Positions 2,601-25,500 of a stretch of DNA of 25,639 nt are shown piece after piece (the first letter of the stretch is position 1; each line of letters begins with the position of its first letter). The notes under the pieces were generated by a model that ran no database searches, was not told the origin of the DNA, and was given only the letters and a program-made list of their open reading frames with translations. Origin of the DNA: Chrysophaeum taylorii (Eukaryota > Sar > Pelagophyceae > Pelagomonadales > Pelagomonadaceae); contig JAQMWT010000338.1 of NCBI GenBank assembly GCA_029834535.1, forward strand, positions 1-25,639, read 5' to 3'. A program made the translations under genes and the position numbers.

Positions 2601-3463
2601 GTCCCCCCTCTGCCTTGTTAAGTTGGTAAGAGATTTGCCTAAATAGTAGGACAGCTTCGATAAATACATGGACATACCAGTTAGGATTATAAACAACAGA
2701 GTTAATTTGCTGTTTCAAATAGGACACATCAGTAGTCGTAACAGACTCGTAGTGACTAAAGGCGATGAGCATAATAGCTCGAGCCTTGTTGGGTAAATAA
2801 CTTTTGTTGTATACCTCATTGATGGCGGGCCAGGTTGCAAGTGCCGGTTTTCCAACACTTTCAAGATTGAAGTAAGTAGCATACGTGTTCTGATAAGTGT
2901 GCCAGTCAGCAGCAGCTAACGAAAACATGGTAACAGGGGCACGAACACGGGTGTCGAAAGCTAGTGCCTTCGGGTGCGCGCGATTTAAGATTCGTTCCTC
3001 TTCTAAGAAACGGGCATTGATTTCAGGACGTAATGCCTTGACTTCATAGTCGTAACAGACAGTAGCTAGCTGAGCTACTTCTGCATCAGGTAAGTGGGGG
3101 AAAGCTTCGTTGGTGAAATGCCATTCCTGATACTCAGGGGGCAATTCATCAACAGCTAAACGGAGAATCAGCAGCCCTATCGGTCTTCCATTCCAGGAAA
3201 ACGCGATCGAGAATTTGATTCCGGAGGATCTCGTAGTCCTTGCATGACCGAGTATATGCTTCGTACGAGTCGTACTCGAGGAAAGCATCGGCATGACTGG
3301 ACCGTAACAATTGCTTAATGTGCTTGATTTGCAAGGATACCTTGCGAGTCTGAAGCTGAAATCGATTTCCATCGTTAAGAAACTCAACTACAGGAGCTTC
3401 GAGCTTCAATATATCCGCACCTGTGATCGCCTTGGGTGCGGCTCGTGCTGCGTGTTCTGCCAT
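2600..3463 (-). pseudogene. Element A gag remnant
   Basis: The ATG at 3463-3461 opens a gag-like frame whose N-terminal 90 residues align with the gag starts of elements B and C (shared KVSLQI, DAF and AYTR blocks). A frameshift near 3150-3190 moves the homology to another frame. That frame continues with LPDAEV, a YFNLES block, KPALA-WP, PNKARAIML and NWYVHVF, all with counterparts in B and C. The similarity stops at about QLNKAE (near 2615), where the sequence passes straight into the linker that precedes RT. Copia gag makes the virus-like particle shell. No CCHC zinc knuckle is visible here. The copy is dead from frameshift and deletion. Confidence 0.78.
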
Positions 3464-4297
3464 AGCAGTTGACGGGGGAACCTGTGGGTTCAGTCACGCA
3501 GTTGACACTGTCTAGACATTCTAAGGGGGTCTGTCTATAGGTGTCTATGTACACTCATCGTTTTCGATGGAAAGATGTCTATTTGACGACTGTGCAAGCT
3601 GTGAGTCCAGAGTAGTGTCGCTAAGCGTAGTCACTCAGGCAGCTGGTTAGTTTTGGTGCTCTCAAGGAGCTTGTTAAGTGCATTGCCATGAAATGTACGA
3701 GTGGACGTACCCAAAATATTCCATAACATGTGTGCAAGAGTACAGGTTAGCCAATTACACACACATCAACATTGACATGACAATACGATGCTATGAACAG
3801 GTGCACACAAGGTTACACGATCACGTGTGCAAAAAAGTATTATACAGCCCAATGGTAATGGCGTTGTATTTACAAGTGTGTTTACGTGGCGAGGCTGAGT
3901 CGGCGCGGTAACGACCCAATACCCATAGGTTACGTGCACGTTTTAACACATGGTTTCTCAGGGACCCGCCTGGGCCCATAACCTGCAGAGCATTAGCAAG
4001 CAGTGGTAAGTCACCTGGGAAACCATCCCGTCTCATCATGAACGTCTGGAAGTATTTAATTCGGGGAATGAAAAGGTATGTTCCCTATATCCTCAGAACA
4101 CGACAGGCGGCATCTAGAACTACACGAGAAAGGTAAAGTGTATAGTGCTACATACCTCGGGGCGCGCTAGACCATGATGATGAGCGCAGGCACAAATCAG
4201 AGGACTATTTGATTGTGTAGAAAGGAAGGAGAAGGGTAAGGAAGAGATCACGTTCTCAACGGAAGGATAAGGGTAAGAGGCAGCAGATTTCTCTGCA
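3464..4297 (-). promoter_or_regulatory. Element A leader and probable 5' LTR
   Basis: This is 830 bases without a credible coding frame, between the gag start of A and the end of B. Two elements are shared with the leader of element C: the 16-base box CAGGTTATGGGCCCAG (3985-3970 here, 16744-16759 in C) and a TATA-like GTATAAT downstream (about 3845-3838). I infer a promoter-bearing LTR. The LTR end and the primer-binding site could not be placed, and the second LTR is outside the window. Confidence 0.45.
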
Positions 4298-5723
4298 GGT
4301 CCATAAGAGACATATTAGAGCGTGCATTACGGTTAGAGGAGGGTGAGTAGACAGGACGATCGAAGCTGGTACCTTTGACGTTATAATTTGGGGGTGGACG
4401 ATAGTACGGCGTGTCACGAGGTAAAATTGTCGATGCATCATCTTTTGCATTACGAAGCTTACGAGCGTTGAAGCCAGACTGTCCAACAACAGTAGCTAAC
4501 AACGAGTAAGCGTTGTTTAAAGAGTCGTGGGATTGATGAATAGTATCCATCAATAATACTTTAGGTGGCTTGGTAGCGGTAGTACCAGGGATGTAAGGGA
4601 TCCAGGAAGCGGGTTTATCCAAGCGTCGGTTAGAGGAAAACTTTGTTTCATTGTATATCTTAACAAGAATTCCAGTAACGGACGAACGTCGTTAGCATCA
4701 ACTAGCTTTAACAATTCAGGATCGTGAATCGAGTTGTTCCCAGAGCGTGTCTCGTAGAGTTTACACCATTCCAATAAAGATTGAGAATAGCGCTCGTGAT
4801 CCGAGGGATTAGCATATAGACGGTAGATCTCCTCGTGAGCTTTAAGAGTAATTATGGATTTATTAACTTGGATTGATGCTTCATCATTATTTAATTGCTT
4901 TGCCTGAGATTGGAAAGCAAGAAGTTGCTCGACGAATACATGGGCATACCAATTAACATTTAAAGACATTCGATTAAACTGAGATTTAAGCTCAGTAACA
5001 TCTGTACAAGACACTGTCTCATAGTAATGGTAAGCTAAAAGCATTACTGCACGTAGTTTATTAGGATGTGCAGTAAGTGCATATGTCTTCTTTAATTGAG
5101 GCCACATAGCGAGTGCTGGTTTGTCTTGTGATTCCAAGTTAAAAAAATGTGTACAAGAAACCAGCATAAGTTTCGCAGTGTTTGATGCAGTCGGTATTAG
5201 AGAGACCTGTAAAGGATATGTTAGTTAGAGAAGAATCATACACAATTGATTTAGGGAATCGGGTATCTAATAGATTAAGGACACGTTTAACATCCTCATT
5301 TAATTCGGGACGAACGAGATTATAGGACTCTTGGTAATAAAGTCGTTCGAGATTGTTACGGACATCGACTGTTAGTTGATGTGATGAATTGACATGCCAA
5401 GTTTTAAAATGATCAGGCAGGGCATCTTCATCAGGTAAGTTTAAATCGTTTAGTTTTTCAGCTTTCCATTGAGCGAAGATAATATCGACGTCTTGTTCAA
5501 GAAGTTGATTGTACTCTGGAGCATTCCGGGTGTAAGCTTCTTATGAGTCGAAGCAGAATAACGCGTCCACATATGGACTTGTCATATGCCTGCGAAGCAC
5601 CTCAATTTGCAAGCTCACCTTGGTTGAGTTGTCTTGGAAACGCAATCCTGCGTTAATTTTATCAACGAGGATTTGTTCTTGTTTGTAAATATCCGTAGTG
5701 GATATTGTCTTTTGTTTTGACAT
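4298..5723 (-). pseudogene. Element B gag, truncated and frameshifted
   Basis: The ATG at 5723-5721 starts a gag closely matching element C (shared start block STTDIYKQEQILVDK). Lesions seen: a TAA at 5543-5541 just before EAYTRNAP; a one-base slip in a run of seven T near 5155-5165, where C reads TTTTTC; and a one-base loss near 4655-4660. After each slip the homology resumes in a new frame (5167-4550, then 4622 leftward). The product would be the particle-forming protein of the element. The coding part ends at the junction with element A after about 470 residues, against about 680 in C. Confidence 0.85.
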
Positions 5724-6310
5724 GATTGTGACCTATTAAGGAATAGGTTATAGGATTGATAGACATGTTCGACACATAAGAATGAAGGGTTTCTCGAGTG
5801 CGGGTTCTATGTACAGTACGCTATTTTAAACGTGGGCTTATTTGCAAGACCAAACAAATCAGCATGCCATTTAAACAGGATGACTTGAGACTGAAGAATG
5901 GATTTATTCTCGAACAGTCAGTCTTTTGTCGGGGAATGGAAGGAAAAACCCGTACAAGTTTCCGCGGCTTGTATAGGAGAAATCTTAATTTTGTTAGCTA
6001 TGCGAGTGCATATGACCAGTAAGGACATTAGGTCCCATAGAAGCGTTTACACTGACAACGAGGAACGAAGCCTCTGTTAATTAAACAGAAAACCCCGTAC
6101 CTGACGGTACGCACCTGGAGGCCTACTCCATGTTGGAAAAGAGCTTCAGACAGGGTTCTTCATAGTCATGAAAAGTATAATTGGGGAAGGGTAAGGAAGG
6201 AAGGATAGGAGGAACGAGGGAAAGCCGTATTACGGAGAGAAAACCCTCGTGTAGAGATAGGTGTGAAATGTTCCAGTGTCGCACACATAATAGTGTAGCT
6301 CTCTGGAACT
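5724..6310 (-). repeat. Element B 5' LTR/leader, missing the central promoter segment
   Basis: Shared blocks with 16345-17227 in opposite orientation include a GGTTTTCTCTCCGTAATACGG-like block (6241-6220), the GGAGTAGGCCTCCAGGTGCG palindromic stretch (about 6131-6111) and the block just before gag. Between 6020 and 6021 the copy skips the segment that C carries at 16627-16930. That segment contains the TATA-like box and the conserved 16-base box, so B may have no promoter of its own. LTR ends were not resolved. Confidence 0.72.
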
Positions 6311-10025: not shown

Positions 10026-11032
10026 TGACGAACCGGAGTTGGTCCGCTCGCGGCGAAGTTTCCCTTCGATGAATCGGCGTACGCCGACGACGTTGCCTTT
10101 CTCTTCTGGGACCGCCACATCGCCGCCAGCGAGACACCGCGCCTCATCGAACACTGCGACGCCTGGGGCATGGAGGTGCATTGCGGCAACCGACACACGA
10201 AAGCGGCGTCCAGAACGGAGATGCTGTTCGTCGCTCGCCCGGCACACCTGTACGGCGACCCAAAGTCGTTCGACGACACGAACCTCTCGGACATCGAGCT
10301 CGGGCGCGGCCGCTTCATACCGGTGGTCGACCAGTTTAAGTACCTCGGCTCGGTCCTCTCGCGCGACTGCCGCGACGACTCAGACGTCGACGCGCGGATC
10401 AAGAAGGCGTCTCAGGCCTTCGGTGCCTTGCGGGACTGCATCTTCGCCTCGAAGTCCGTCTCTGCTCGCGCCAAGCGCCTCGTCTATGTCTCGCTCGTCC
10501 TGGCCATCCTCCTTCACGGTGCGGAATCGTGGTGCCTCACCGAGGTCCTGTTCCGCCGGCTGCGGTGTTTCAACGCGCAGTGCGCCCGCGTCATGTGTCG
10601 TGTGACCCGGAAACACACCTGGCCCCACCACATCTCAACGGAGATCCTGCGGCGGCGCCTCGGCCTCGAGTCCATCGACGTCTACGTCACGCGCCGCCAG
10701 CTCCGCTGGGCCGGTCACGTCGCCCGCATGCCCTTCTCCCGACTCCCTCGCAAGATGCTCTCGTCTTGGGTACGCTCCAAGCGCCCACCGGGGGCTCCGC
10801 AGATGACGTACGGGAGGTCGCTCGCCAAGGCACTCCGGAAATGCGACATCCCCTTCAACTCGTGGCACGACCTCGCACAAGACCGCGCGCAGTGGCGGTC
10901 CGCCATCCATGCACTTTCATCCCAAGCTTCTACCCCAACTGTGTGATTTTTTTTGCTCTGTGATCCTGGACCGGCTACTACCGGCACAGCCTGGCTCCCA
11001 TGCCCGGGAGAGGTCCGAAGTTAGTTAGTTAG
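10026..11032 (+). mobile_element. 5'-truncated non-LTR retrotransposon (LINE) with (TTAG)3 tail
   Basis: The element consists of the C-terminal half of a LINE reverse transcriptase, a short 3' region with a run of T (about 10946-10955), and three TTAG units at 11021-11032. 5' truncation is the usual outcome of target-primed reverse transcription, and a short tandem repeat tail is typical of several LINE clades. The left limit is only approximate, and no target-site duplication was recognised. Confidence 0.75.
10029..10946 (+). pseudogene. LINE reverse transcriptase, C-terminal part
   Basis: An open frame follows a TGA at 10026-10028 and runs to the stop at 10944-10946. It contains the catalytic YADD box (10080-10091). 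Later blocks typical of LINE polyprotein ends include VDQFKYLGSVLS, LHGAESWCL and RRQLRWAGHVARM, followed by a Trp-rich C-terminus (WHDLAQDRAQWR). The endonuclease and N-terminal RT domains are absent, so the fragment cannot mobilise. The remaining frame has no stop over about 305 codons and is GC-rich, which suggests a fairly young insertion. The clade was not determined. Confidence 0.85.
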
Positions 11033-12055: not shown

Positions 12056-12996
12056 TCATCCGATGTAGCGTTCCGCCCAAGTAGCAATCATGTCACCCGC
12101 GTATATGGCGTCCTTGCGATTGGAGAGAAGGTGGGTGGCACCATCAAGCGAGATGAAGGATTTTGGATGCTTCGCAGCCCAGAATATCTGCGCGGCGTTT
12201 TCGAGGGCCACGGTCTCGTCAGCGGGCGCATGGAGCACGAGGAGCGCTCTTCGGAGCGAGGCAATGTGGTCGGTGTCTTGAGCTCTGATGTCATCGAGAA
12301 ATTGCTTTTTGACTTTGAAGGTGCGGCCGGCGAGCTTGACCTCGGCTTGGCCGTATTCCTCGATTCGCGAGAGGTCCGCCTCAAAGTTATGAAGCACGTG
12401 TGCGGGGTCAAACGGGGCACCAACGACGGCGATGGCTTTGCACTCGACGACTTTTGGGGCGGCGGCGAGAACGGCAGCGCCGCCGAGCGAGTGGCCTACT
12501 AGAATCTGCGGCGCGCCCGTCGTCCCGCGAAGGTGGTCGGCCGCCGCCAACAAGTCGGCCACATTCGAGCTGAAGTTCGTGTTGGCCCACTCGCCGTCCG
12601 AGTGTCCGAGCCCCGTGAAATCAAATCGAAGGCAGGCAAACCCGTTCCGCGTCAACCTGAGCGAGCATCGGCATCAGAAGAACGAGGATGATCGACGGTA
12701 CGCGGGAATCGCGACGCGCCAGAAATGTACTTAGCGCTCATCACATCGCGCCCGCAGGTGAAGCAATGCGCGAACAGCGCGACGCCCTTAGGCTTCTCGA
12801 AGAGCTTGGGCAGTTCTAACAGCCCCGCCAACTTCTGGCCGTCGGCACCCACGAAATCCATACGTTGGCGCTCGGTTGTCGCGTCGGAGACGGGTGGTTT
12901 GTGCACAATCGGCGCGGCGGCGCACGACGCGTCGTCGCTCAGCCTGCGCCGAGCGATGCGAAACACTTGCTTCCCGACCACGAACACCCTCTCCAT
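12056..12996 (-). CDS. Alpha/beta hydrolase, two exons
   Basis: Exon 1 is 12996-12716 and exon 2 is 12656-12056, with a 59-nt GT-AG intron (12715-12657). The junction restores a continuous family pattern (ISGAL then [16 protein letters not shown]). The product is 293 residues. Visible features are the oxyanion-region [11 protein letters not shown], the nucleophile elbow GHSLGG (Ser150), Asp240 in PADETV and His269 in ATHLLS, a complete Ser-Asp-His triad. It belongs to the serine aminopeptidase/dienelactone-hydrolase-like group, and the closest patterns I recall are bacterial hydrolases, including those fused to OsmC domains; no OsmC domain is present here. The first 30 residues are Arg-rich with few acids at the start, so organelle targeting is possible. 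An in-frame TAG lies upstream, which supports the ATG at 12996. The substrate cannot be predicted. Confidence 0.86.
12657..12715 (-). other. 59-nt intron of the hydrolase gene
   Basis: The intron begins GTCGCG and ends GCTCAG on the minus strand, in phase 2. Removing it joins the two hydrolase frames exactly at the expected family position. Without removal, the first frame ends after about 25 unrelated residues. Confidence 0.85.
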
Positions 12997-13566: not shown

Positions 13567-14352
13567 TTAGCTCGCCTTCTTGGGGCTGGCGTTAACGGGA
13601 TTCTCGAGAGAAACGACGGGCAGGCATCCGGCCCACCACTCAATACGCGGCGAACAACCTAGGTGCTGCGTTCGCGCGTAGGCGCCAAAGGTGATGCCGT
13701 AGTAGACATTTGCCCCCATGAATAGGTGCCACACGGCGTGTAAGTGGACGCGCTCGAAGCAGAACGAGTTGTCGAGAAGCCAGGCAACCAGGCCGACGAT
13801 GCCGCAGGCGACATACCGGCGGCAGAGCGTTCGTGCGACGTCGTCGGTGCAGTTGCGAAAATTTCGCCTGGTTCGCGGCAGCACGCTGACGGCGAGCGCA
13901 GCGAAGAGGACCTGGAAGGCAGTCGTCGGCCGCGCGCGCACGTGCCACGCAGCTTCGAGACAGGCGGCGATGATTAGTAGCAAAGCAAGGGTGCGACCGC
14001 CGTCATCGTAAACGACGTACGTCCAGCCGAGTGCGCCCCAGATCATGGGCAGTTCGTCGCCGAGCTGAGCCGCGTAAAGGAGCGTTGCGTGGAAGGCCAT
14101 CGAACCAATGCCAATTAATACGATGATAAGGAAAATCGCCGTAAAGCGCTTTTCCAGCTTCCAGCTCCACGCCATGCCGACGAGGCCCGGAACGACGAAA
14201 GCTAAGTTCGATGCCGTGTTCCAGGGTTCCGCGACCCACGTCGAGTGCGCGTAGTTGCGTTCGCACCAATCAATCGACGAAGTTGGCGTGCCCCAAACGC
14301 TCTCGGCGCTCCCAGCGCAGTCCAACGGATTGAAACATACGCGCGAAGTCAT
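13567..14352 (-). CDS. ACER-like: Alkaline ceramidase
   Basis: This is an intronless gene of 261 residues, the usual length for the family. The enzyme hydrolyses ceramide to sphingosine (or phytosphingosine) and fatty acid in the ER/Golgi membrane. All residues known from human ACER3 are present with the right spacing: the Ca-site set Asp28, Glu31, Asn33 and Glu42 (SIDWCERN and VAEPWNT); Ser84 and zinc-ligand His88 in GIGSMAFHATL; Asp99 in GDELPM; and His205 and His209 in HLHAVWH. Several hydrophobic segments fit the seven-helix fold of the ACER/PAQR superfamily. The C-terminus is KKAS, matching the KKxx dilysine signal for ER retrieval. It starts at 14352, 300 bases from the divergent ankyrin gene. 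Confidence 0.93.
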   Translation of the reverse strand: MTSRVCFNPLDCAGSAESVWGTPTSSIDWCERNYAHSTWVAEPWNTASNLAFVVPGLVGMAWSWKLEKRFTAIFLIIVLIGIGSMAFHATLLYAAQLGDELPMIWGALGWTYVVYDDGGRTLALLLIIAACLEAAWHVRARPTTAFQVLFAALAVSVLPRTRRNFRNCTDDVARTLCRRYVACGIVGLVAWLLDNSFCFERVHLHAVWHLFMGANVYYGITFGAYARTQHLGCSPRIEWWAGCLPVVSLENPVNASPKKAS

Positions 14353-14656
14353 CTAGGGCCCCATCAAACTTGCGGAGCTGGATCTTCGGTAGCAAAACCT
14401 CGCCACTCTTGGCGTCGAAAGTGATTATTTCCCTTACCCTTCAAAGCCCGCGCTTTGATACTGGTATTTTCGGTTCGGTATTTACGTATTTGTGATTCGT
14501 ACGCGGCATATTTACGTAATATCCTTTGGTTGAAAAACTAGCCCTCTCGAAGAGAAGGTGCTCTTCGGGTCGCGAAACCGTCGTCGTCGCTCAGTTTTTC
14601 TGAATGTTGGACACTAAACGGATATACTTTCAACCAAAGACGGCCACTAACACCAG
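14353..14656. promoter_or_regulatory. Divergent intergenic region with inverted repeat
   Basis: This 304-base gap separates the ceramidase start (minus) from the ankyrin start (plus) and should carry both promoters. A perfect 12-base inverted repeat (CTTTGGTTGAAA at 14524-14535, its complement at 14628-14639) encloses 92 bases. Inside it lies a small hairpin, CGAAGAG with CTCTTCG (about 14548-14567). A TATTTACGTA motif occurs twice (about 14478 and 14508). No canonical TATA box is evident. Confidence 0.45.
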
Positions 14657-15958
14657 ATGATGCATCGTGCGTGCTTCGCCGGCGATATAGGTGTCGTGCG
14701 GCGATTGGTTGCGCGTGATTCTTCCGCCGTGAAGAAGGTCGATGATGCTAACGGTTATTCGCCCCTGATTGTCGCGAGCTCCGCCGGCCAACGCAGTGTC
14801 GCGCGTCTTTTACTTTCACTCGGCGCTGATATCAACCATGCCGGAAAGAATGGTTCTACTGCCCTCCACGCCGCGTGCGAAAACGGCCGCGTCGACGTAG
14901 CAACCTTGTTGCTGGCGAGCGGCGCCGACGTCAACAATGTCAACAACAGTGGTGCCTCGCCCCTCATGGTCGCGGCTGTTCATGGCTACCTGAATATTGT
15001 TCAATTGTTGCTCTCCCGAGGGGCTGACCCCAACCAACGCCCTACCAACGGCGTCCCGCCGCTTGTCGTCGCGAGCGAAAAGGGTCAGGTCGAGTTGGCA
15101 CGCCTGCTCCTCGAAAACGGTGCTCGAGCCAACTCGGATTTAGACATACCTCCGCTTCACGCGGCAACGTATCACGGATTCGTCGAGTTGACCAGCTTGC
15201 TGCTCGAGCATGGTTCTGACGTCAACCAGGCCGACAACCGTGGTACCTCGCCGCTCTGCATCGCGAGTACGAACGGCGACGTCACCATCGCCCGCCTCTT
15301 GCTTGAACACGGCGCGAGAGTCAACCAGGCCAACGGCGTCGATGCTTCTCCGCTCTTAGCCGCTAGCTCGAACGGACACATCGACGTGGCTCGCCTGCTG
15401 CTCGAGCATGGCGCTGACGTCAACCAGGATTCCAATTTCGGTGCCTCGCCACAATACACCGCGCGCCAGAAAGACGTCAAGATCGGATCTTCGCCGCTCT
15501 TCATTGCTTGTCAGAACGGCAACGATTCGGTCGTCCGATTGCTCATTTCTCATGGCGCCGACGTCAATCAGACTACGAACCATGGCGCCTCGTCGCTCTT
15601 CATTGCCAGCTTAAACGGTCACCTTTCCATCGCCCGCTTCCTACTGGCGAACGGCGCCGATGTCAATCTGGCAACGACAAGAGGTATCCCACCGCTCGCC
15701 GTAGCTAGCTTCCACGGTCATGACGAGCTGGTGCGATTGTTGATAGCTCACGGCGCCAACTCTTTCTTTCTCGACGGTCTGACACTCCTCGATTTCGAGC
15801 ATGAGCCCATCTCCGGGGTACTCGCTAACCAGCTTCCTCTCCTCGACAAGGTCATCCTCGAATCTTCTTATACCGATGATGATATTGTCGTTCGGGAAGA
15901 ACGCCGCACAACGAGGAAATGTCCACGCTGCACCCGTCGACGCCCGCCTCTCGACTAA
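14657..15958 (+). CDS. Ankyrin-repeat protein
   Basis: This is an intronless ORF of 433 residues. About eleven ankyrin repeats of 33 residues run from residue 1 to about 370, with repeated GADVNQ turns and a PL-ASxxGH-ARLLL core. Repeat 6 is short, and one repeat (about residues 260-275) is broken: it reads GASPQYTARQKDVK and then passes directly into the next repeat. The C-terminal 60 residues lack repeats and end in an Arg-rich tail with a CPRC pair. There is no signal peptide, membrane segment or partner domain. Ankyrin arrays bind proteins; the partner is unknown. The first ATG in the frame is used, and the array begins immediately after it (HRACFAGDIGVVRRL). Strongly similar repeat units suggest expansion by recent internal duplication. 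Confidence 0.92.
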   Translation: MMHRACFAGDIGVVRRLVARDSSAVKKVDDANGYSPLIVASSAGQRSVARLLLSLGADINHAGKNGSTALHAACENGRVDVATLLLASGADVNNVNNSGASPLMVAAVHGYLNIVQLLLSRGADPNQRPTNGVPPLVVASEKGQVELARLLLENGARANSDLDIPPLHAATYHGFVELTSLLLEHGSDVNQADNRGTSPLCIASTNGDVTIARLLLEHGARVNQANGVDASPLLAASSNGHIDVARLLLEHGADVNQDSNFGASPQYTARQKDVKIGSSPLFIACQNGNDSVVRLLISHGADVNQTTNHGASSLFIASLNGHLSIARFLLANGADVNLATTRGIPPLAVASFHGHDELVRLLIAHGANSFFLDGLTLLDFEHEPISGVLANQLPLLDKVILESSYTDDDIVVREERRTTRKCPRCTRRRPPLD

Positions 15959-16344
15959 TCTACTCCTGTTAATTCAGGCGCAACACACACTTGTGATTAT
16001 GATCTGGCCCTGCCTGCCTGCCTTCCTTCCTTCTGGGTGTCAGAATTCCACTCATTATCATCATCTATCTAATGATGTCCCGGGGTATCTCGAGCGTGCA
16101 CTGCGGCGGGAACGAACTCCTGGTCCTTAGGGCTTACCCTGCATCTTTTTGTCTTACCGATTTCGGGTGCGCCCACTCTGCCCTCAACCTTTGAGTTTGC
16201 TCCTAAAACCCTCCGCGCTGTCAGAGGTATCTTTATCGTAGTTATGGCAGCTATGGCGGCACAGAAAAACCACTCCCGACACCCTGGTGACAAAGGGGGC
16301 ACTCACCGACTCGTCCTAGACCTCACTGAACGAGGAAAACTCCA
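15959..16344. other. Region between the ankyrin gene and element C
   Basis: These 386 bases hold the ankyrin 3' UTR and a CCTG/CCTT short repeat (16009-16033). A plus-strand frame of about 95 codons ends at the stop near 16363, overlapping the edge of the LTR. It has a weak ATG at 16243 and no recognisable domain, and I do not call it a gene. A purine run, AAAGGGGGC, lies at 16294-16302. Confidence 0.4.
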
Positions 16345-17227
16345 GAGCGCTACACTATAATGTGTACGACACTGGAACTCCTTACTCCTTTCACACCTTT
16401 TTCTACTTGAGGGTTTTCTCTCCGTAATACGGCTTTCCCTCTTTCCTTCCTTACCCTTCCGCAATTACTTATTTCATGACTATGAAGAATACAGTCTGAA
16501 GCTCTCTTCCAACATGGAGTAGGCCTCCAGGTGCGTACCGTCAGGTACGGTGTTTTTCTGTTTAATTAACAGAGGCTTCGTTCCTCGTTGTCAGTGTAAA
16601 CGCTTCTATGGGACCTAATGTCCTTAAGGAGTTAGGGCCTAAATCCCTACATTGTGTAGTAGCACGTGACAAACGGAATGGTCTGTACACGCCTAAGACT
16701 GCACGCAGTCTCTACCATGTACCCGGAGAGGGTCAAATCTCTCCAGGTTATGGGCCCAGATGCGTAGGTGTGTCAGCCCAACTGTGTTGTGCGTATAATG
16801 GAGTGATCAGTTTACGTCTGATTACGAGTACAACGCGACGATGTGTTTGGCGGTGGTCTACTGTACATATTTGTTGTGTGACGGTATGTGCCCACCAGTT
16901 AAATTGGTTTGTGACCGAGTTGGGTCGGCCACTGGTCATGTGCACTCGCATAACCAATAAAATTAAAATTTTTCCTACACAAGCCGCGGAAACTTGTATG
17001 AGTTTTTCCTTCTATTCCCCAACAAAAGGCTGACTGCTCGAGAACTAATCCATTATTCAGTCTCAAATCATCATGTTTAAATGGCATATTGATTTGTTTG
17101 GTCTTGTAAATAAGCCCACGCTTAAAATAGCGAACTGTACATACGCATCCGCATGTTAGAAACCCTTCATTCGAACATGTCAAATTGTTTTATCACTCCT
17201 TTAACCTACCTTTAACAGGTCATAATC
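16345..17227 (+). promoter_or_regulatory. Element C 5' LTR and leader
   Basis: The stretch is homologous in inverted orientation to 5724-6310 except for an extra segment at 16627-16930. That segment holds the box CAGGTTATGGGCCCAG (16744-16759, shared with element A) and a TATA-like GTATAATG (16793-16800), so it is probably the promoter. The exact LTR start (a short inverted CCAGAG...CTGG lies at 16341-16375), LTR end and primer-binding site were not resolved. Confidence 0.6.
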
Positions 17228-18956
17228 ATGTCAAAACCTAAGCCGATATCCACTACGGATATCTATAAGCAGGAACAAATTCTCGTTGATAAGCTCAACG
17301 ATGGTTTACGTTTCCAAGACAATTCAACTAAGGTCAGTTTGCAACTCGAAATGCTTCGTAGGCACATGACAAGTCCATACGCGGACGCGTTCTTCTCCTA
17401 CGACCCGTATGACGCGTACACGCGGAATGCCCCATAATATAACCAAATTCTCGAACACGAAGTTGATATCATTTTCCCCCAATCGAAAGCCGAGAAAATC
17501 AACGAACTACATCTACCTAACGAAGATGCCCTGCCTGACTATCTCAAGACATGGCATATTAATCATACACATCAGCTATCAGTCGATGCACGTAATGATC
17601 TCGAACGACTTTTCTTTCGAGAGTCATTTAATCTTGTTCGACCCGAATTAAATGAGGACGTTGAGCGCGTCCTCACTCTTTTAAATGCCCGATTCCCTAA
17701 ATCAATTGTGTATGATTCGTCTCTAACCAATGTATCCTCCTCAGGTCCTTCTAATGTCGACTGGATTAAACACTGCGAAACCTACGCGGGATTTTTGTAC
17801 ACGTTTTTCAACTTGGAACCTTAAGATCGCCCTGCCCTCGCCATGTGGCCGCAGTTGACGAAAATTTGCTCGTTTGCAGCGCATCCCAATAAAACGCGCG
17901 CTCTGATGTTGTTATCCTATCATTATTATGAAACTGTATCCTGTACGGATGTCACTGAACTTAAATCTCAATTCAATCGAATGTCCTTAAATGTTAATTG
18001 GTATGCTCATGTATTTGTCGAACAACTTCTTGCTTTCCAAACTCAGGCAAGTCAATTGAACAACGACGAAGCATCAATTCAATTTAATGATTCCATAATC
18101 GCACTTAAAGCTCACGAAGAGCTTTACCGTCTTTACGCAAATCCATCTGACCACGAGCGCTACTCTCAGTCACTATTAGAATGGTGCAAACTTTACGAAA
18201 CACGCTCGGGGAACAACTCGACTCGCGATCCTGAAGTTTTAAAGCTAGTTGATCCCAATGATGTTCGCCCGTTATTGGAGTTCTTGTTAAAGATATACAA
18301 TGAGACAAAACTCTCATCTAACCGACGCTTGGATAAACCCGCATCATGGATTCCATATATCCCTGGTACTACCGCTACCAAGCCACCTAAAGTATTACTG
18401 ATGGACACCATTCATCAGTCCCACGACTCTCTAAACAACGCTTATTCATTGTTAGCTACCGTCGCTGGACAGTCTGGCTTTAATGCTCGTAAGCTTCGTA
18501 ACGCAAAAGATAAGGCGCCGACAGTTTCACCTTGAGACACATCCTACTATCGCCCACCTTCTAATTATAATGCCAAAGGTACCAGTTTTGATCGTCCTGT
18601 CTACTCACAATCCACTAATCGCAATTCACGCTCTAACATGTCACCAATGGATCGCGCTACTTATCAAGAAGACCGTCTTCGCCATTTGTTTAATAAGCTA
18701 CAGAAAGCAAATCCCCATCCTTCTACCGATTCTAAAATAGTACAAGAGGAAATGAAGAGCTTACTAAGTACTCTCTGGACCACTGCTTCTCAAGCTTCTA
18801 CACAGACTCTCGATCCAGAAGAAGCCACCCAAGTTCACCTATACCTATCACGAGTTTATACAATGTCCAACACCATCTCGAACCTTCTAGAGACAGAAAA
18901 AGAGTCTCACATCGTAGAAGAAATGGATCAAGTTGAAACTTCTGCTCCTGCAGCGT

Positions 18957-18988
18957 CCCCCAGTGATGCGGAGCAGAGGGGGACTGCT
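18957..18988 (+). repeat. Internal 32-bp direct repeat, copy 1 (in gag)
   Basis: The copy contains GATGCGGAGCAGAGGGGGA, flanked by CCCCCA on the left and TGCT on the right. It matches 23156-23187 with two mismatches and encodes DAEQRG in both places. Confidence 0.92.
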
Positions 18989-19108
18989 GAAACGGAAAGG
19001 ATGTTTCACACTTTTCTATCTATCAAAGATGATGAAATCGATAATATTCCTCAACCGTTACTGCAGCATATAAATGCTAAAGCACAGAGTGCTATCGTTC
19101 GTCGTCAA

Positions 19109-19160
19109 GCTCGGGAAACTTCTTTGCACTCTGAGCTCGGGAAACTTCTTTGCACTCTGA
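19109..19160 (+). repeat. 26-bp exact tandem duplication at the gag-protease boundary
   Basis: The two copies, 19109-19134 and 19135-19160, are identical, each starting GCTCGGGAAAC. The length of 26 shifts the frame, which explains why gag and the protease-like part lie in different frames. Confidence 0.95.
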
Positions 19161-19799
19161 GCTTCCCAATAATCAACAAAACGAAGAAAACTAGGATGGT
19201 GCAGATCCCCCTGTGTTGCTCCCGAAATCAAATAGTGGTTTTACACTTGTCGTGGTACCTTCCGAACAAACGCAAAGTTTCATGACTCAGTATGTGTTTG
19301 GTCAAAGTTCTACACATGCTTGTTATGCAACAATGCTTAAACTGTATCATGAATACAACTTACCATTAATGACCACGCCTGGGTATGCTGATACGTGCGC
19401 TTCTGAACATGTGGTTAACTTTAAACGTTACGCCGACCCACTACATATCGTTAAACTGCCCGAGTCCTTGTCACCCGCCATCCAGACGGCTACAAACACC
19501 CAAAGTTTGAACAGTCATCCCTGCTCTTCCAAAGCATCCTAACGTTGGATATGTAAAGCTAGATGTTGCTCTTTTCCTACCCAAACAAAATCAACATAAC
19601 GATCCTGATTTGCACATCACCAGCATGACTAAATGGGGAGAAGACAAACTTGGTATACACCTCTATGGGGTTGAGTTTAAAGGACAATCATCTATCCAGA
19701 GCAAGATTGACGACAACGTCAAGATTACTTTGTTTAGATTAAACAATTTATTACCTACTCTCCCAATTTATTCGTTACAGCTAGCTAAAGCTCGAAAAA
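19161..19799 (+). pseudogene. Element C protease-like region
   Basis: Frame 19213-19542 contains YADTCASEHV (Asp at 19390). This is the position and shape of the copia aspartic protease active site, normally Asp-Ser/Thr-Gly-Ala/Cys-Ser followed by His; here Cys replaces Gly. The homologous reading appears to move to another frame after about 19510 (KHPNVGYVKLDVALF, then a hydrophobic-rich stretch to 19840). A copia protease would cut the gag-pol polyprotein. The unusual residue and the frame changes make this copy doubtful as an enzyme, and the assignment rests mostly on one motif and on its position. Confidence 0.55.
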
Positions 19800-22529
19800 A
19801 TGGAACTACGCTCTTTACAGTTCAGGTTGAGTGCTTTTAACCAACAGCGTGAGATGCTTAAACTATACTCCAAACTTCTTGAACGTGTAATTTACGTCCC
19901 GTGGTTTAAAACTATTTTGGAGTCCAAGCACTCACAGTTGCCTTATGTTCGCGAACATTTCTCACCTCCTGTATGACGCAAGTTTAACACACGCTTGCTC
20001 CATACTGTAACAGCCACTTCTAGTTCACGAGTACCTACTGTAACTCTACTTTGCTCCGGGATGTCCACTCCTGCATTCTTGGCTTGTGCTTCCAATGACT
20101 TGCGAATCAACATTAACGTTAAAGTTCTCGTTGAAAGCGATGAAAACCTTACGCATATGCTACGAAGACGGTTTGGTAATTCCATCGAAGTGTTTCCGTC
20201 ACTACCAAAGTTCCTTACCTATCTGCATCGAGCGTCGGATGCTGAACGTGCAAGATACTACTCTGACATTGTGGAATTGACTTCCCCATGTACCAATCGT
20301 AACATAATCAATGGGAGATCTATATCAACTTTCGAGCGAGATATGGACGACTCTTTATTTCCAAGTGCTCTAAGTGTACTTGAGCTTTTAAAGCCCCTTG
20401 TTCTTTTCATGGAGATGACACCACCACACTCTGCATCATATGAAGATCATATACGAGTTGCTAACCTGATCTTCTCCACAATGCATTACACGGTGGATAT
20501 ATGCGATCGCTTTCCATGTTACTTGTGTGGAGATTATCAAGCTAGAGAAAGATGGATCGTCGTTGCTCGCAAATATAATACCGGTCCACTAGATTTGCTC
20601 TCTTGGCCCAATATGCGAGTTACTTCTTTCCTGGACATTGCGGGTCATGTTAACTCCATAAGTCGCAAGTTAATTGTCGACGAACCCTGGACACAGGTCT
20701 TCTCGGATGTACCATTCGTTTCCATGCCTAAAACTTACAGCAGCTTCAGTCACACAGGATCCGTTCGCCTAACGGTTACCGAACTAAAGACACTAACCAT
20801 GCTGTTCCTCCGTTTGCATTCATATAAAACAATCGAACACCCAAGTCAAGACGAAATGGAGGGCATTTCTAACTTCCGCCTAGGATTTTTAGCGAATTCA
20901 AGAAAACCCCTAACGTGTATGACTTCACCTATTGAACTTAAGGCCTTTGTTGTCCTCTATAACATTATGGGACGCTTGTTCCCAAATTCTACTACATTAC
21001 CTGTGTCTTTTCGTATTACAACTATCGAATCTAACCAACCATCTCACAGGTTATTTTTAAATAAATCCTCTACTTCCTCCATTATCTACATCACTGGCGG
21101 AAGACACACAGGTGGAGACATCACAGTTTCTAACTCCTCCTCTAAATACCAGGCACACATAAATGCATTTGGGGAAACCTACACCTTGCAAACACATGAA
21201 ACAGGAATTGATAAGACTGCTTCTCTCAATCCTGTTACCGGTTTTCTTTGGTTATGCCAAGCTTACCACCATCATAATGAAACCCAAGACACCCGTCGTC
21301 TCGTGCAAACACTGGTCTCCCACACTTCACCTGTGCTTCACGATTCTTTCATTTTCTATCCCAAGACAAATCATCTTGAATTTATCGATAGAATCTTTGC
21401 TTTAAGTGACATGCATCTGTCTCAAAGCAGGTACCTTGGCTTCATCACATCCAGTGATAGAAAGATGGGCGCCAAAGTTCATTCTATTCACACACCAACT
21501 CCAACTATTCGTGGATTTGCGAACATGATCCTTTACGATCCACGGCTTGATCGCATTCGACATTACTCAACTCGCGAACTGGCACGCGCCAATAACTTCA
21601 CAGCGCACCAAATTAATTTTCTTCTGTCTTTGTCCCCGGACCTTTGTTGTGACATAATTGCTAATGCTATTCCGGCTGGAACCTATCATGTAATTTATAC
21701 ACATTTGTGTCAGATTGTCTATGATTTGCGTAAATTAACGTTATCACCATCTTTTGACCCTGATCATGCTTCTCTAACCAAAAACTATAGGCCAACCTCT
21801 TTCACTAACATATTTCCAACTGACACATCCTTCATATTAAACCAGAGTTCTATCACAATGTTATACATTTCTAATAAAGCATTCAAATGTTGTGACAACA
21901 TCTCTCCCAACCACGAACCTCCATTGTTTCATCTCGATTCAGTAGCCCAAGTATTCCTATCTAACATCTCATCCGCAGATGAACCATCTACTACAAAAGT
22001 GAAACACATTCCTCTCATAACTCCAAGACAGTTACATGAGAAACATGCTTCTTTTGACAGAAAAGTACATGCCAGAGGCACTCTCGCTTTTCGAGATGCT
22101 CAGCGACGTGCCACGAATTTTCACAACATTCACCATTCTAGTGATTCTCAGGCTATAAAAGCTGTTCAGGTCATTGCCAGCCCGGGACATCATCCTTCAG
22201 ATGTGCCCTACCGTAAGTTTTGTGTGGATTGTACCTTACATAAAAAACGTTTTCCTCATCCACATCATCTTACCAAGCAACCTTCATTTAAAAAAGTCTT
22301 TCAGCCCGGTGAAGCTTGGGCATGTGATGGTGGTTACGTATCTGTCCTATCCGAATGGGGCTCTTTTCGCCACATTTTAGTTTTCAAATGCCTCATCTCT
22401 AAATTTTTGTTAGTGTACTTTTGTCGTACCACTAATGCTAGTGCATTCTGTAATGCCCTCGAGTTTGTTCGCAATTTTTGCTCCACCTATGTTCATGTAC
22501 AATTAAAAATTAAAACAAATTTATTTTGA
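19800..22529 (+). CDS. Element C pol segment: C5 DNA methyltransferase-like domain followed by integrase
   Basis: The frame opens with ATG at 19800. One TGA (19975-19977) interrupts it, after which 850 codons are open. Residues are numbered here from the codon at 19995. Methyltransferase motifs in order: I (15-31, TVTLLCSGMSTPAFLAC), an acidic end of the next strand (VLVESDE, 44-50), IV (SPC, Cys99, followed by Asn101 and GR at 107), VI (FMEM, Glu140), VIII (QARER, 182-186), IX (TPTPTIRGF and STRELARANNF, 500-535) and X (IIANAIP, 554-560). A 300-residue region between VIII and IX replaces the usual recognition domain and includes an oxygenase-like stretch (about 335-410). Integrase follows: His-rich stretch 710-733, CVDC 743-746, and the first catalytic Asp778 in WACDGG. 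The expected second Asp may be Asn842 (KIKTN). It would methylate cytosine, perhaps on element cDNA, then integrate it. The distant match means activity is uncertain. Confidence 0.7.
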
Positions 22530-25500
22530 CTCTTTTAAACCCTATTTATCTCAACACGTGTTGAACATGGCATCAATATGTCTGCTTTCCCTCCCTACTT
22601 ACATGTGTTTATTCATGAAGTAGAAGCCGCTGTTGGTCATATAGCAACTGCTGCGTCTACACGACTCCGGACTCCGGCATATGCTTAATATATCCTATAA
22701 AGGTCACCCCCTAACAGATCCGGCACCACATTACCCGTGGGCTGTTATACATGCTCTTCAATCGTATAATCTCCTTCCTAATGTCTCTCTCGAACGCATT
22801 TATAATAAAGTCCTAAGCCCCCAACAAGTTTTGTTGGACCAATGTAATGTTCCCCAACAAGACTACCTCAAACCTTTTGGTTCTGTTTGTTATTTGCGTC
22901 TGGAGTCTAATGAATTTCACAAATATGAACCTTGATGCCGTCCCTACATTTTCTTATGTGGCGCTAATTTTATAAACCCTTTAGTCACACCCCATGTTAA
23001 CCACTTAGCTGGTGTTGTCCTCAATCCTGAGAACGGCCAAGTCCGTGTCTCTTCTAAACTTACCTTCCCTCATCTCATTTCTAAATCTCCTCCCGATTAC
23101 GAACAACATCCCCCACCCGCACCTTCACCCGAAATACCCTTTTCTGTTCAACGCACCCCCAATGATGCGGAGCAGAGGGGGAATGCTCTGTCCAACGACA
23201 TTGAACACGAGAGGGGGACTCCTTCACCCCTCGCACACGCTCCGACTCCCGTTCCCGCATGTGCTCCCGCTGCTTCTGCCCCCGGTGCTTCTATCGCCAC
23301 ACCTCCGGCATCTGAAGTGTCATCCACCACTTTACCCATTTTACAATCCTATCGGTCCCTATACTCCCAAGATGTCCTTCGTCTCACCCGCGGTTCTAAT
23401 CACCCTCAGCCTCGTCGCAAGACTAGTCTCAAGGCTGTCCTCAATCGTATTGCTTCGCCAACTGCTGCCGCTTATAACCAAGCTGGTGGCACGCTTGCTG
23501 ACTTCAAGTATGACCTCTCTAAGCAGTATATAACTTTCTGCGACCCCACCCTCCACTCCCTTCATATTGCTCACGGCATCCACTGGATGGCTATGCCTCC
23601 AGAGGGGGAATTTACACAAACTCTTCATCATCATGTTCACCAAGCGCTATTCCAGTCTTCTTCTGGTATATGTCATAGTAGCCTTAGCCATCCGTCGGCG
23701 GATGCCACTCCTGTTCATCTCCTCGACGACTTCAGCCTCGCGGACCTTCACCTTCCTCGTGCTCTTGTTCATCTAATTTCTGAACACGCTCAAGTTTTTC
23801 AAGTTCCTCCCGCTCAATATGCTTACGCTTTGCTAACGCCTCATTCTATTTTGGATCATAACGATGCTTCTTATGGCGCTTCAGAACCTCACCTCTCCGC
23901 CATTGAAGACTACATCACTGTGCAGTCTCATTACATTGATGCACACCTTGGAGATGACCCTCTACTAGTTATTCAACTTGTCGAAGATCCAGATCCCGCT
24001 CATACTAACGATATTGTTGATTCTTACACGATCATCCACCTTACCCATGCTCAAGATCCCAGCACTGTTGTTCCGGACGAATATAAAATTCCGGGCGAAT
24101 ATAAAATTCAAGCCAAGGATATCAAGATTGATGAATATGAGTTGACCTGCCTCAAAGGTCTTTCTGACGCTGATCGTAAGGCTTATATCTCCGCGATTTC
24201 CAAGGAGATTTTTGACATTGTCAAGTTTGGCTGCTTTAAACTCTCGTTGCCTATGGTCAACTCCAAGCCCATTGATACCCGACTGGTATTACGTATAAAA
24301 ACCAATGCTGCCGGCGAATACATCAAACATAAAGCGAGACTGGTCCTACGAGGATTCTTAGCTTCTCTGGGCACCGACTTTTTTAACACATTTAGCCCAA
24401 TGGCGCAGCTCACCGGTATCCGTTGTGTTCTGGCGCTCGCAGCCCACCTCCGACTTCCCGTCTACCACATAGACGTCCCTAATGCTTTTGTTCAAGCTCC
24501 TATAGACTCTCATGTCTACGTTAAACTGCCACAAGGTATTCACCTACTCGATCCTGAAGATGCAAAATATCAAGGACGACGTCTTCCAAAACTACTTAAA
24601 TCTCTTTATGGATTACGACAGAGTCCTGCTCTTTGGAACCAAACCATAAATGGTTTCTTCGACACGCTAGGCTATAAACGCTTTCGAACAGATACATGCA
24701 TCTATGCTAAAGTCCAAGCCGATGCTACGTTTTTACTTTGTACGCTATCAGTGGATGATGTTGTTATCATTTGTACATCGGAAAGTCTACGTCGTGAATT
24801 CCAACAAGCCATGAAGAAGGAATACTCGGTTGAAAACTTTGAAGAAGTTCATACTCTCTTAGGTATGCGCATAACTCGCACTACCGATGGTTCCATCTCA
24901 CTTGACTGCCAAGCTAAGATTGATGCATTGTTTGAAGAGTATCCCATCTTAACGCAGTTACGTCCCACATCAACTCCTATGTCCCCTTCAGCTACGTATA
25001 AAACTGGAGAGCCATCTTCTGATATGGACAAGTTCATCCAACACACCTTTTCCACCTTACTTGGCAAGCTTACTTTTGTACAGTTGGCCTGTCGCCCTGA
25101 TTTATCACAAAGCCTCAGTCGCTGTTCCCGAGGAATGCATAATCCAGCGTATTTGCATGTCCAAGTATTAACAGGAACTCTTCGCTATTTGCGCAAGCCT
25201 GAAAATCGCAATCTTCGACTATGGTACTACTCCGGTTCTTCCGCTCTAATGGACCATCTTAGATTTCTCATCGGCAATCGTACCGATATGGCAACCATGT
25301 TGGATTACACTAAAGAACAAGTGAATTCAGGTAATTTTGATCCACTGGTCGCGTTCGTCGATGCTGATAATGCACCCTCTTATGAACAAGATCGCAAATC
25401 TACAACTGGTTATGCCATCTTTTTATTTGGTTCCATCACTTGGAAGTCTAAACTACAGCCTATTACAGCTACTTCCGCGCATGAGAGTTAACTTATTGCC

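Follow-up and report, generated by a model that had tools for sequence, protein, structure and literature searches.

A Ty1/copia retrotransposon family of Chrysophaeum taylorii with a probable captured C5 cytosine methyltransferase domain in its Pol

Introduction

Cytosine methylation is a classic host weapon against transposons. According to de Mendoza et al. 2018 (PMC5890265), C5 methyltransferases are carried by long interspersed nuclear elements (LINE) and DIRS elements of the dinoflagellate Symbiodinium and by gypsy elements of the charophyte Klebsormidium, and the retrotransposon DNMTs are reported to perform de novo CG methylation; the same paper states that the copia superfamily of Symbiodinium has no DNMT domain. 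A paper from 2025 (PMC12344493) mentions 'LTR Copia and DIRS' DNMT3 elements (LTR, long terminal repeat) and gives the 2018 paper as its source, although the LTR elements described there are Gypsy. In addition, the survey in PMC9289625 reports that plant copia elements have gained no domains. No other copia element with a methyltransferase domain was named in the open-access literature searched, subscription papers and preprints being outside its scope. Here we describe a Ty1/copia element of the pelagophyte Chrysophaeum taylorii, located on the + strand at the right end of a stretch of 25,639 bases that makes up the whole contig JAQMWT010000338.1 (C338, hereafter the window), whose Pol probably holds a captured and diverged C5 cytosine methyltransferase domain (Table 1).

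Results

An earlier reading of the window, made without database searches (hereafter the sequence-only reading), had placed a methyltransferase-like open frame between the protease-like region and the integrase of a copia element. This was borne out by the analysis: the frame is open from stop to stop and lies upstream of a match to RVT_2, with a weak integrase match between them. The motifs quoted in that reading also occupy the residues claimed for them, namely LLCSGMSTP (18-26), SPC (97-99), FMEM (138-141) and QARER (182-186) in the N-terminal part, and PTPTI (501-505), STRELA (525-530) and IIANAIP (554-560) in the C-terminal part. Both RVT_2 downstream of the integrase and an LTR with an abutting primer-binding site, on which the assignment to Ty1/copia is based, are present. 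The window copy is damaged outside the methyltransferase, with the gag-protease frame and the integrase broken and the methyltransferase frame intact. In another copy, a single frame of 1464 residues runs from the methyltransferase part through SH3_retrovirus and into RVT_2, of which it holds the beginning; these matches, at 22.7 and 16.5 bits respectively, are below their cut-offs.

Further copies, for which the sequence-only reading had proposed a search, are abundant: at least 105 related places, window included, were found in the 70.8-Mb assembly of 697 contigs. The window domain used as a query matched 81 stretches, some of them pieces of one copy, and the 30 best-scoring, window included, were taken for analysis. 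When the genome was searched with the family PF00145, 124 matches were obtained, among them copies of a second, sister copia family, represented by L052 (C96) and L054 (C314), with canonical PCQ and ENV in one long Pol open reading frame (ORF). In L052 a single ORF of 1801 residues holds, in this order, PF00145 (E 9.8e-8, 32.2 bits, above the cut-off), rve (E 0.0055, below the cut-off) and RVT_2 (E 1.3e-17), and a second copy again combines PF00145 with RVT_2. The canonical PCQ and the motif VI Glu were present in all 18 sister copies examined, one of 19 being left out; these copies had been selected by PF00145 score and are biased to good motifs. Regarding the integrase of the window element, the rve match is weak (E 0.047), and positions 22065-22511 show 24.8% identity (E 5e-9) with the integrase region of the sister family.

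The relationship of the window domain to C5 methyltransferases was evident at the level of family profiles. Profiles of the window's family and the sister family are collinear over 473 columns (E 2e-5), with a score of 47.8 vs at most 25.2 in 200 column shuffles, and in this alignment the Cys, the Glu and the last Arg of the window's family stand opposite motifs IV, VI and VIII of the sister domain. Without the sister family, the profile of the window's family scored 37.2 against three C5 methyltransferases over residues 15-198, with Pro-Cys, Glu and QxRxR aligned; none of 200 shuffled controls exceeded 22.7, and the reversed control gave 16.0. In searches of PDB with the joint profile of the two families, C5 methyltransferases were the best 14 of the 15 matches listed (best E 3e-6; 1.1e-4 with a wider alignment), and a search of proteins with the joint profile returned one C5 methyltransferase, P0003 (E 1e-4). 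A search of 5.8 billion proteins returned solely the MMETSP transcript P0002 (E up to 0.001; 5399 candidates scored), which is 40% identical to the window domain over 360 residues and matches PF00145 at E 4.4e-4 and 20.2 bits, just under the cut-off of 22; against PDB sequences, P0002 matched mostly ankyrin-repeat designs, with one cytosine methyltransferase at E 0.49. Viral and prokaryotic contigs scanned for relatives gave none of use. On the basis of these profile comparisons, the copia domain is related to C5 METHYLTRANSFERASES; the C5-methyltransferase reading of Cys99, Glu140 and QARER as motifs IV, VI and VIII is supported, and we regard the window domain as a diverged C5 methyltransferase homologue (PF00145) with predicted catalysis.

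Several results weigh against this reading. The window sequence itself matches no methyltransferase family in Pfam or NCBIfam, the NCBIfam scan giving nothing, and of seven other copies of the window's family a single one has a PF00145 match with E no higher than 1. When the window and sister domains are compared by BLASTP, the C-terminal part gives the match, at only 25 bits (E 0.006). The hhalign probability for the window's family against C5 methyltransferases is 25-31%, and the shuffle controls were run because of this low value. A narrower first profile of the family found nothing in a single host methyltransferase (C634), and the profile of the window's family without the sister family retrieves no PDB methyltransferase by sequence; a phmmer search of PDB with the window domain had p53 (E 0.05) in its best rows, which was regarded as a chance match. 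Furthermore, the Asn-Val of ENV and the Gln of PCQ are missing from the window's family (Met-Thr in 16 rows; PCT), and the 30 copies used for the selection analysis, being the best scorers of 81, favour intact ones. The structural model has a mean pLDDT (predicted local distance difference test) of 54 with a poorly placed motif IX-X part, and 6 of the 22 rows fed to the predictor came from the sister family. The lack of a direct Pfam match for the window copy, of a PDB match for the family profile alone and of a match to the C634 enzyme would be expected if the motifs were a chance resemblance in an unrelated copia domain that is not a methyltransferase. We give this explanation very little credence: it was rejected on the profile match, which beats 200 of 200 shuffles, and is further opposed by the fold match presented below and by the collinear relationship to the sister domain, whose own PF00145 score lies above the cut-off.

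Conservation of the motif residues was assessed in an alignment of 22 rows, 16 from the window's family and near relatives and 6 from the sister copia family, falling into four groups with 77-93%, 45-50%, 37% and 15-18% identity to the window. Gly22, Glu47, Asp91, Pro98, Cys99, Glu140 and Arg186 are invariant across the 22 rows. Cys99, Glu140 and Arg186 had been chosen by the sequence-only reading from one sequence, and all three fall within the 16 invariant positions of residues 1-224, at a nominal probability of 3e-4 that ignores the conservation bias of residue types. The motif VIII claim held in part: Arg186 is invariant, and Gln182 and Arg184 are present in only 16 of 22 rows, Ile and Lys replacing them in the six sister-family rows, so that QxRxR is complete in every row outside the sister family. 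Among the 30 copies, Cys99 is found in all and Pro98, Glu140 and QxRxR in 29 each. Thr100 and Met141 are likewise present in 30 of 30 copies and also in the 45-50%-identical subfamily; ENV is found in the six sister-family rows.

The strength of selection was estimated from pooled pairwise ratios of nonsynonymous to synonymous substitution (dN/dS) among the 30 copies (435 pairs; fewer for linker and integrase). Values were 0.085 for the core, 0.108 for the middle part, 0.088 for motifs IX-X and 0.109 for the integrase start; the linker, which serves as an internal control, gave 0.293. In the sister copia family the three parts of the domain gave 0.17, 0.28 and 0.31 (18 copies). Judged from these ratios, the domain is under purifying selection. 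The sequence-only reading had warned that the enzyme may have diverged or lost activity. The divergence at Thr100 and Met141 was confirmed; decay of a dead copy as the origin of PCT/EMT was rejected, as the change is fixed in the family. Since PCT/EMT occurs in the whole family and the family is under purifying selection, the pattern is, on these alignments, a fixed trait of the window's branch and a constrained divergence, not decay of one copy. The main alternative, which we consider unlikely, is a methyltransferase-derived but non-catalytic domain that binds DNA or S-adenosylmethionine, or shapes the particle or the integrase. The replacement of the motif VI Asn-Val and the motif IV Gln throughout the window's family, unlike the sister family, would fit such a role and gives binding without catalysis a real chance in this branch, whereas the near-complete retention of Cys99 and Glu140 and a core under selection as strong as the integrase start argue for a catalytic enzyme. 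An enzyme of altered rate or specificity would be expected rather than a dead one, because the changed active site is conserved.

Structure prediction had been named beforehand by the sequence-only reading as a check of the methyltransferase fold. A first prediction from a shallow alignment reached a pLDDT of 37; in the model from the 22-row alignment, strands and helices succeed one another as in class I methyltransferases, and DNMT1, DNMT2, M.HhaI, ZMET2, DNMT3A and DNMT5 were among its best fold matches in PDB. Neither of the two outcomes that the sequence-only reading had set as refuting it, a model without the methyltransferase fold or a profile search leading to another family with the motifs out of register, came about. 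VIA-align listed methyltransferase matches only, and the remaining parts of the model were barely tested by it. The middle part, at the place of the target-recognition domain, is modelled as beta-rich, with a block pLDDT of up to 85. Foldseek matched the model, which is of moderate confidence, to AlkB (E 4.7e-5; template-modelling score 0.48 by target length; aligned residues absent from the Foldseek output) and also to viral 2-oxoglutarate oxygenases, so a dioxygenase-like fold is possible for this part. Comparisons by hhalign of the family or the middle part with E. coli AlkB, YbiX and host AlkB-like proteins stayed at noise level, and a protein search for relatives of the middle part gave no sequence support for a dioxygenase. 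The iron site HxD...H of dioxygenases is mostly retained in the sister copia family (His in 15/18, Asp in 16/18 and the distal His in 16/16) and lost in the window's family, which has HRL at the likely place. These observations are no more than a lead towards a reading that we hold unlikely, namely a two-enzyme cassette expressed by stop readthrough, in which the target-recognition part of a C5 methyltransferase would be replaced by an AlkB/2-oxoglutarate-dioxygenase-like domain. If true, a single segment of Pol would provide the element with a writer of DNA methylation and, beside it, an oxidising eraser or reader of the mark.

Because the two copia families hold collinear domains at the same place, the methyltransferase was presumably captured once, at one place in Pol, before they split. 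A different situation was observed for 63 further PF00145 matches, which reach profile positions 1-77 at most, several of them below the cut-off; four of the 63 were read (L053, L073-L075). L053 (C235:17501-25500) is a Ty3/gypsy element: after its PF00145 stretch, which scores 21.9 bits against a cut-off of 22, come RVT_1, RT_RNaseH and Integrase_H2C2 in adjacent frames, the domain, with FSGAGG and SPPC, sitting just before the reverse transcriptase. The four gypsy-type domains matched three C5 methyltransferases at E 7e-7 over motifs I-IV, and their dN/dS was 0.12 (4 copies). Profile comparison of the gypsy domain with the copia domain detected no similarity, and on this ground a common origin of the two was rejected. 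By this evidence, the genome holds at least two independent methyltransferase captures, one in copia and one in gypsy elements. The genome also contains two host-like C5 methyltransferases, in frames of 360 (L031, C634) and 2086 residues (L032, C621), the latter of which we take to resemble DNMT5.

The methyltransferase frame is separated from the upstream frame by a TGA located seven codons before the first numbered residue of the domain. This TGA is present in 28 of the 30 copies, one of the others having TAA and one a shifted frame. Upstream of the stop, 4 of the 30 copies have an open frame across the whole 493 codons in view, and the remaining copies have a shorter one; downstream, 17 of 24,211 codon cells are stops. 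In the 45-50%-identical subfamily, TGA occupies the same place in seven of nine copies, followed by CTA in four, CTG in one and AT in two, and the two remaining copies have a different upstream sequence with no stop in view. The context is accordingly UGA C in the window's branch and UGA CUA in 4 of the 7 subfamily copies that have the stop; UGA CU(A) is given as a readthrough motif in the accessible part of PMC4207609. A reading of TGA as a sense codon was rejected on account of the scarcity of stops downstream and of Trp187 and Trp204, both encoded by TGG. What was found is a conserved in-frame stop in a leaky context, as in programmed readthrough, which suggests that methyltransferase, integrase and reverse transcriptase would be made as a minor readthrough product. 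In L052 of the sister family, gag does not share a frame with pol, and a frameshift would be needed there instead of readthrough.

Table 1. Positions of the features of the Ty1/copia element in the window.
Feature	Position	Strand	Remarks
5' LTR, about 405 bp	16341..16745	+	Left edge accurate to a few bases
Primer-binding site GGTTATGGGCCCAG	16746..16759	+	Abuts the LTR in the window and in copies on C37, C81 and C34
gag and protease-like region	17228..19973	+	ORF pieces; window copy broken by stops and shifts
Protease-like motif GYADTCASEHVV (QHVI in other copies)	19381..19416	+	Text search; 21/30 copies
In-frame TGA, candidate readthrough stop	19974..19976	+	Between protease frame and methyltransferase-integrase-reverse transcriptase frame
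Open frame: methyltransferase-like domain, linker and integrase start, 850 residues	19977..22529	+	Stop to stop
C5-methyltransferase-like catalytic core, residues 9-224	20019..20666	+	
Motif I CSGM, residues 20-23	20052..20063	+	Gly22 in 22/22 aligned rows
Motif IV Pro98-Cys99	20286..20291	+	22/22 aligned rows
Motif VI Glu140	20412..20414	+	22/22 aligned rows
Motif VIII QARER, residues 182-186	20538..20552	+	Arg186 in 22/22 aligned rows
Middle part, residues 225-480, at the place of the target-recognition domain	20667..21434	+	Beta-rich model
Motif IX-X-like C-terminal part (PTPTI, STRELA, NAIP)	21435..21740	+	NAxP aligned with sister family by profile comparison
Integrase region	22035..22935	+	Frame broken after 22529 in window copy
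Integrase end, reverse transcriptase and RNase H region	22936..25491	+	RVT_2 E 5.2e-43, residues 441-683

The 405-bp LTR unit is repeated in the genome, with at least 42 matches (40 of 703 candidates scored). Most genome matches reaching its left edge start at 16334-16341, and one further copy starts at 16338. In the copies on C54 and C12, LTR matches also lie about 8.5 kb beyond the point where the methyltransferase starts, so the element would be about 12 kb long and extend beyond the contig end; the window copy would have its 3' LTR past that end, and the last bases of the window are matched in another copy. A comparison of LTRs in C317 gave no match, the stretch compared having probably stopped short of the 3' LTR. 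No Pfam match to an aspartic protease was obtained among the gag-protease pieces scanned, and the protease-like motif has DTCAS where D[ST]GA is usual, with Cys for Gly; the region upstream of the TGA is taken as a putative protease. The RNase H region was labelled by position and had no Pfam match among those listed.

The sequence abutting the LTR fits what we take to be the complement of the anticodon arm of initiator tRNA-Met, and the complement of this site occurs 549 times in the genome vs 0 for the reversed control. Copia-type elements are primed by a half-tRNA cut in the anticodon loop, and DNMT2 protects the anticodon loop of tRNA. An improbable alternative is, in this context, a DNMT2-like RNA methyltransferase that would act on element RNA or on the primer tRNA and steer primer supply. 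The primer-binding site and the presence of DNMT2 among the best fold matches are in line with this possibility, but DNMT1 matches the model as well as or better than DNMT2, a Ty3/gypsy family of the same genome also bears a methyltransferase-like domain, and ARAGORN called no tRNA at three candidate initiator-tRNA places.

A 33-base initiator-tRNA-Met-like 3' stretch is common to L078, L079, L080 and C524:369573-369605 (45 bases in L078-L080). The 5' sides of this stretch differ among L078, L079 and L080, where ARAGORN finds no tRNA, and such stretches may be tRNA genes that are split or contain an intron, or else remnants of primers.

The rest of the window contains other elements and genes. 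Opposite-facing copia pieces (gag, reverse transcriptase) occupy positions 1-6307 on the - strand, with a 5' boundary near 6307 and no detectable methyltransferase part. An ORF with a YADD-type motif at 10029-10946 (+) resembles a LINE reverse-transcriptase end, with no Pfam match at E 0.01. Host-like genes for an alpha/beta hydrolase, a ceramidase (E 1.4e-52) and an ankyrin-repeat protein lie between the elements, at 12056-12673 (-), 13567-14352 (-) and 14651-15958 (+).

Discussion

The explanation that we consider likely is that a Ty1/copia family has captured a C5 cytosine methyltransferase domain, which lies within its Pol, would be expressed by TGA readthrough and would methylate the element's cDNA. 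Capture and selective retention are supported by the sequence data; expression, packing, substrate and benefit to the element are what we infer from them. Gag-protease would be the main product, and occasional readthrough of the TGA would yield a fusion of Gag, protease, methyltransferase, integrase and reverse transcriptase, by which small amounts of the methyltransferase would be packed together with integrase and reverse transcriptase. The packed enzyme could then methylate newly made double-stranded cDNA, either ahead of integration or during it. The mark might give the copy the look of methylated host DNA, or modulate expression of the copy once it is inserted. The parasite may in this way carry the very chemical marking tool by which hosts silence such parasites.

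With this family, copia joins LINE, DIRS and gypsy as carriers of methyltransferases, and two copia families seem to share one old capture. The independent gypsy case in the same genome, together with copia, suggests a repeated advantage and not a curiosity. Furthermore, a 71-Mb genome with more than 100 copies, in which a canonical (PCQ/ENV) sister family can be set against a diverged (PCT/EMT) one, makes the use of the methyltransferase to the element directly testable.

Features of the DNMT-bearing retrotransposons of de Mendoza 2018, namely a methyltransferase in the element ORF, many copies and purifying selection, were found here. The known systems resemble the present element in some respects and differ in others. 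In-frame UGA between gag and pol is shared with the retrotransposon Tca2 of Candida albicans (PMC2194720), for which no methyltransferase is reported in the accessible text and whose junction gave no detected readthrough in S. cerevisiae. The algal Sola1-1_Ec32 of Ectocarpus (PMC12477816) also bears a DNA methyltransferase, but it is a DNA transposon, and its enzyme, which has a ParB-like domain, is predicted to methylate cytosine at N4 or adenine at N6. In the AlkB Ty3/gypsy elements of orchids (PMC9289625), a nucleic-acid-modifying domain was likewise captured by an LTR element, AlkB being also a fold match here; there, on the other hand, the domain is an active m6A RNA demethylase in a separate ORF of a gypsy element. 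SymbioDIRS-Dnmt3 and SymbioLINE-Dnmt of Symbiodinium (PMC5890265) are retrotransposon-borne C5 methyltransferases, hundreds of them in one genome, in DIRS and LINE elements and with the key residues conserved. KnitGypsy-Dnmt3 of Klebsormidium nitens (PMC5890265) is likewise an LTR element whose Pol ORF includes a C5 methyltransferase, and it too is present in several copies and under purifying selection (Ka/Ks below 0.2 in that paper). KnitGypsy-Dnmt3 is a Ty3/gypsy element whose Dnmt3-related domain conserves the key residues, whereas the element described here belongs to Ty1/copia, carries its domain between the protease-like region and the integrase, and has changed motifs IV and VI.

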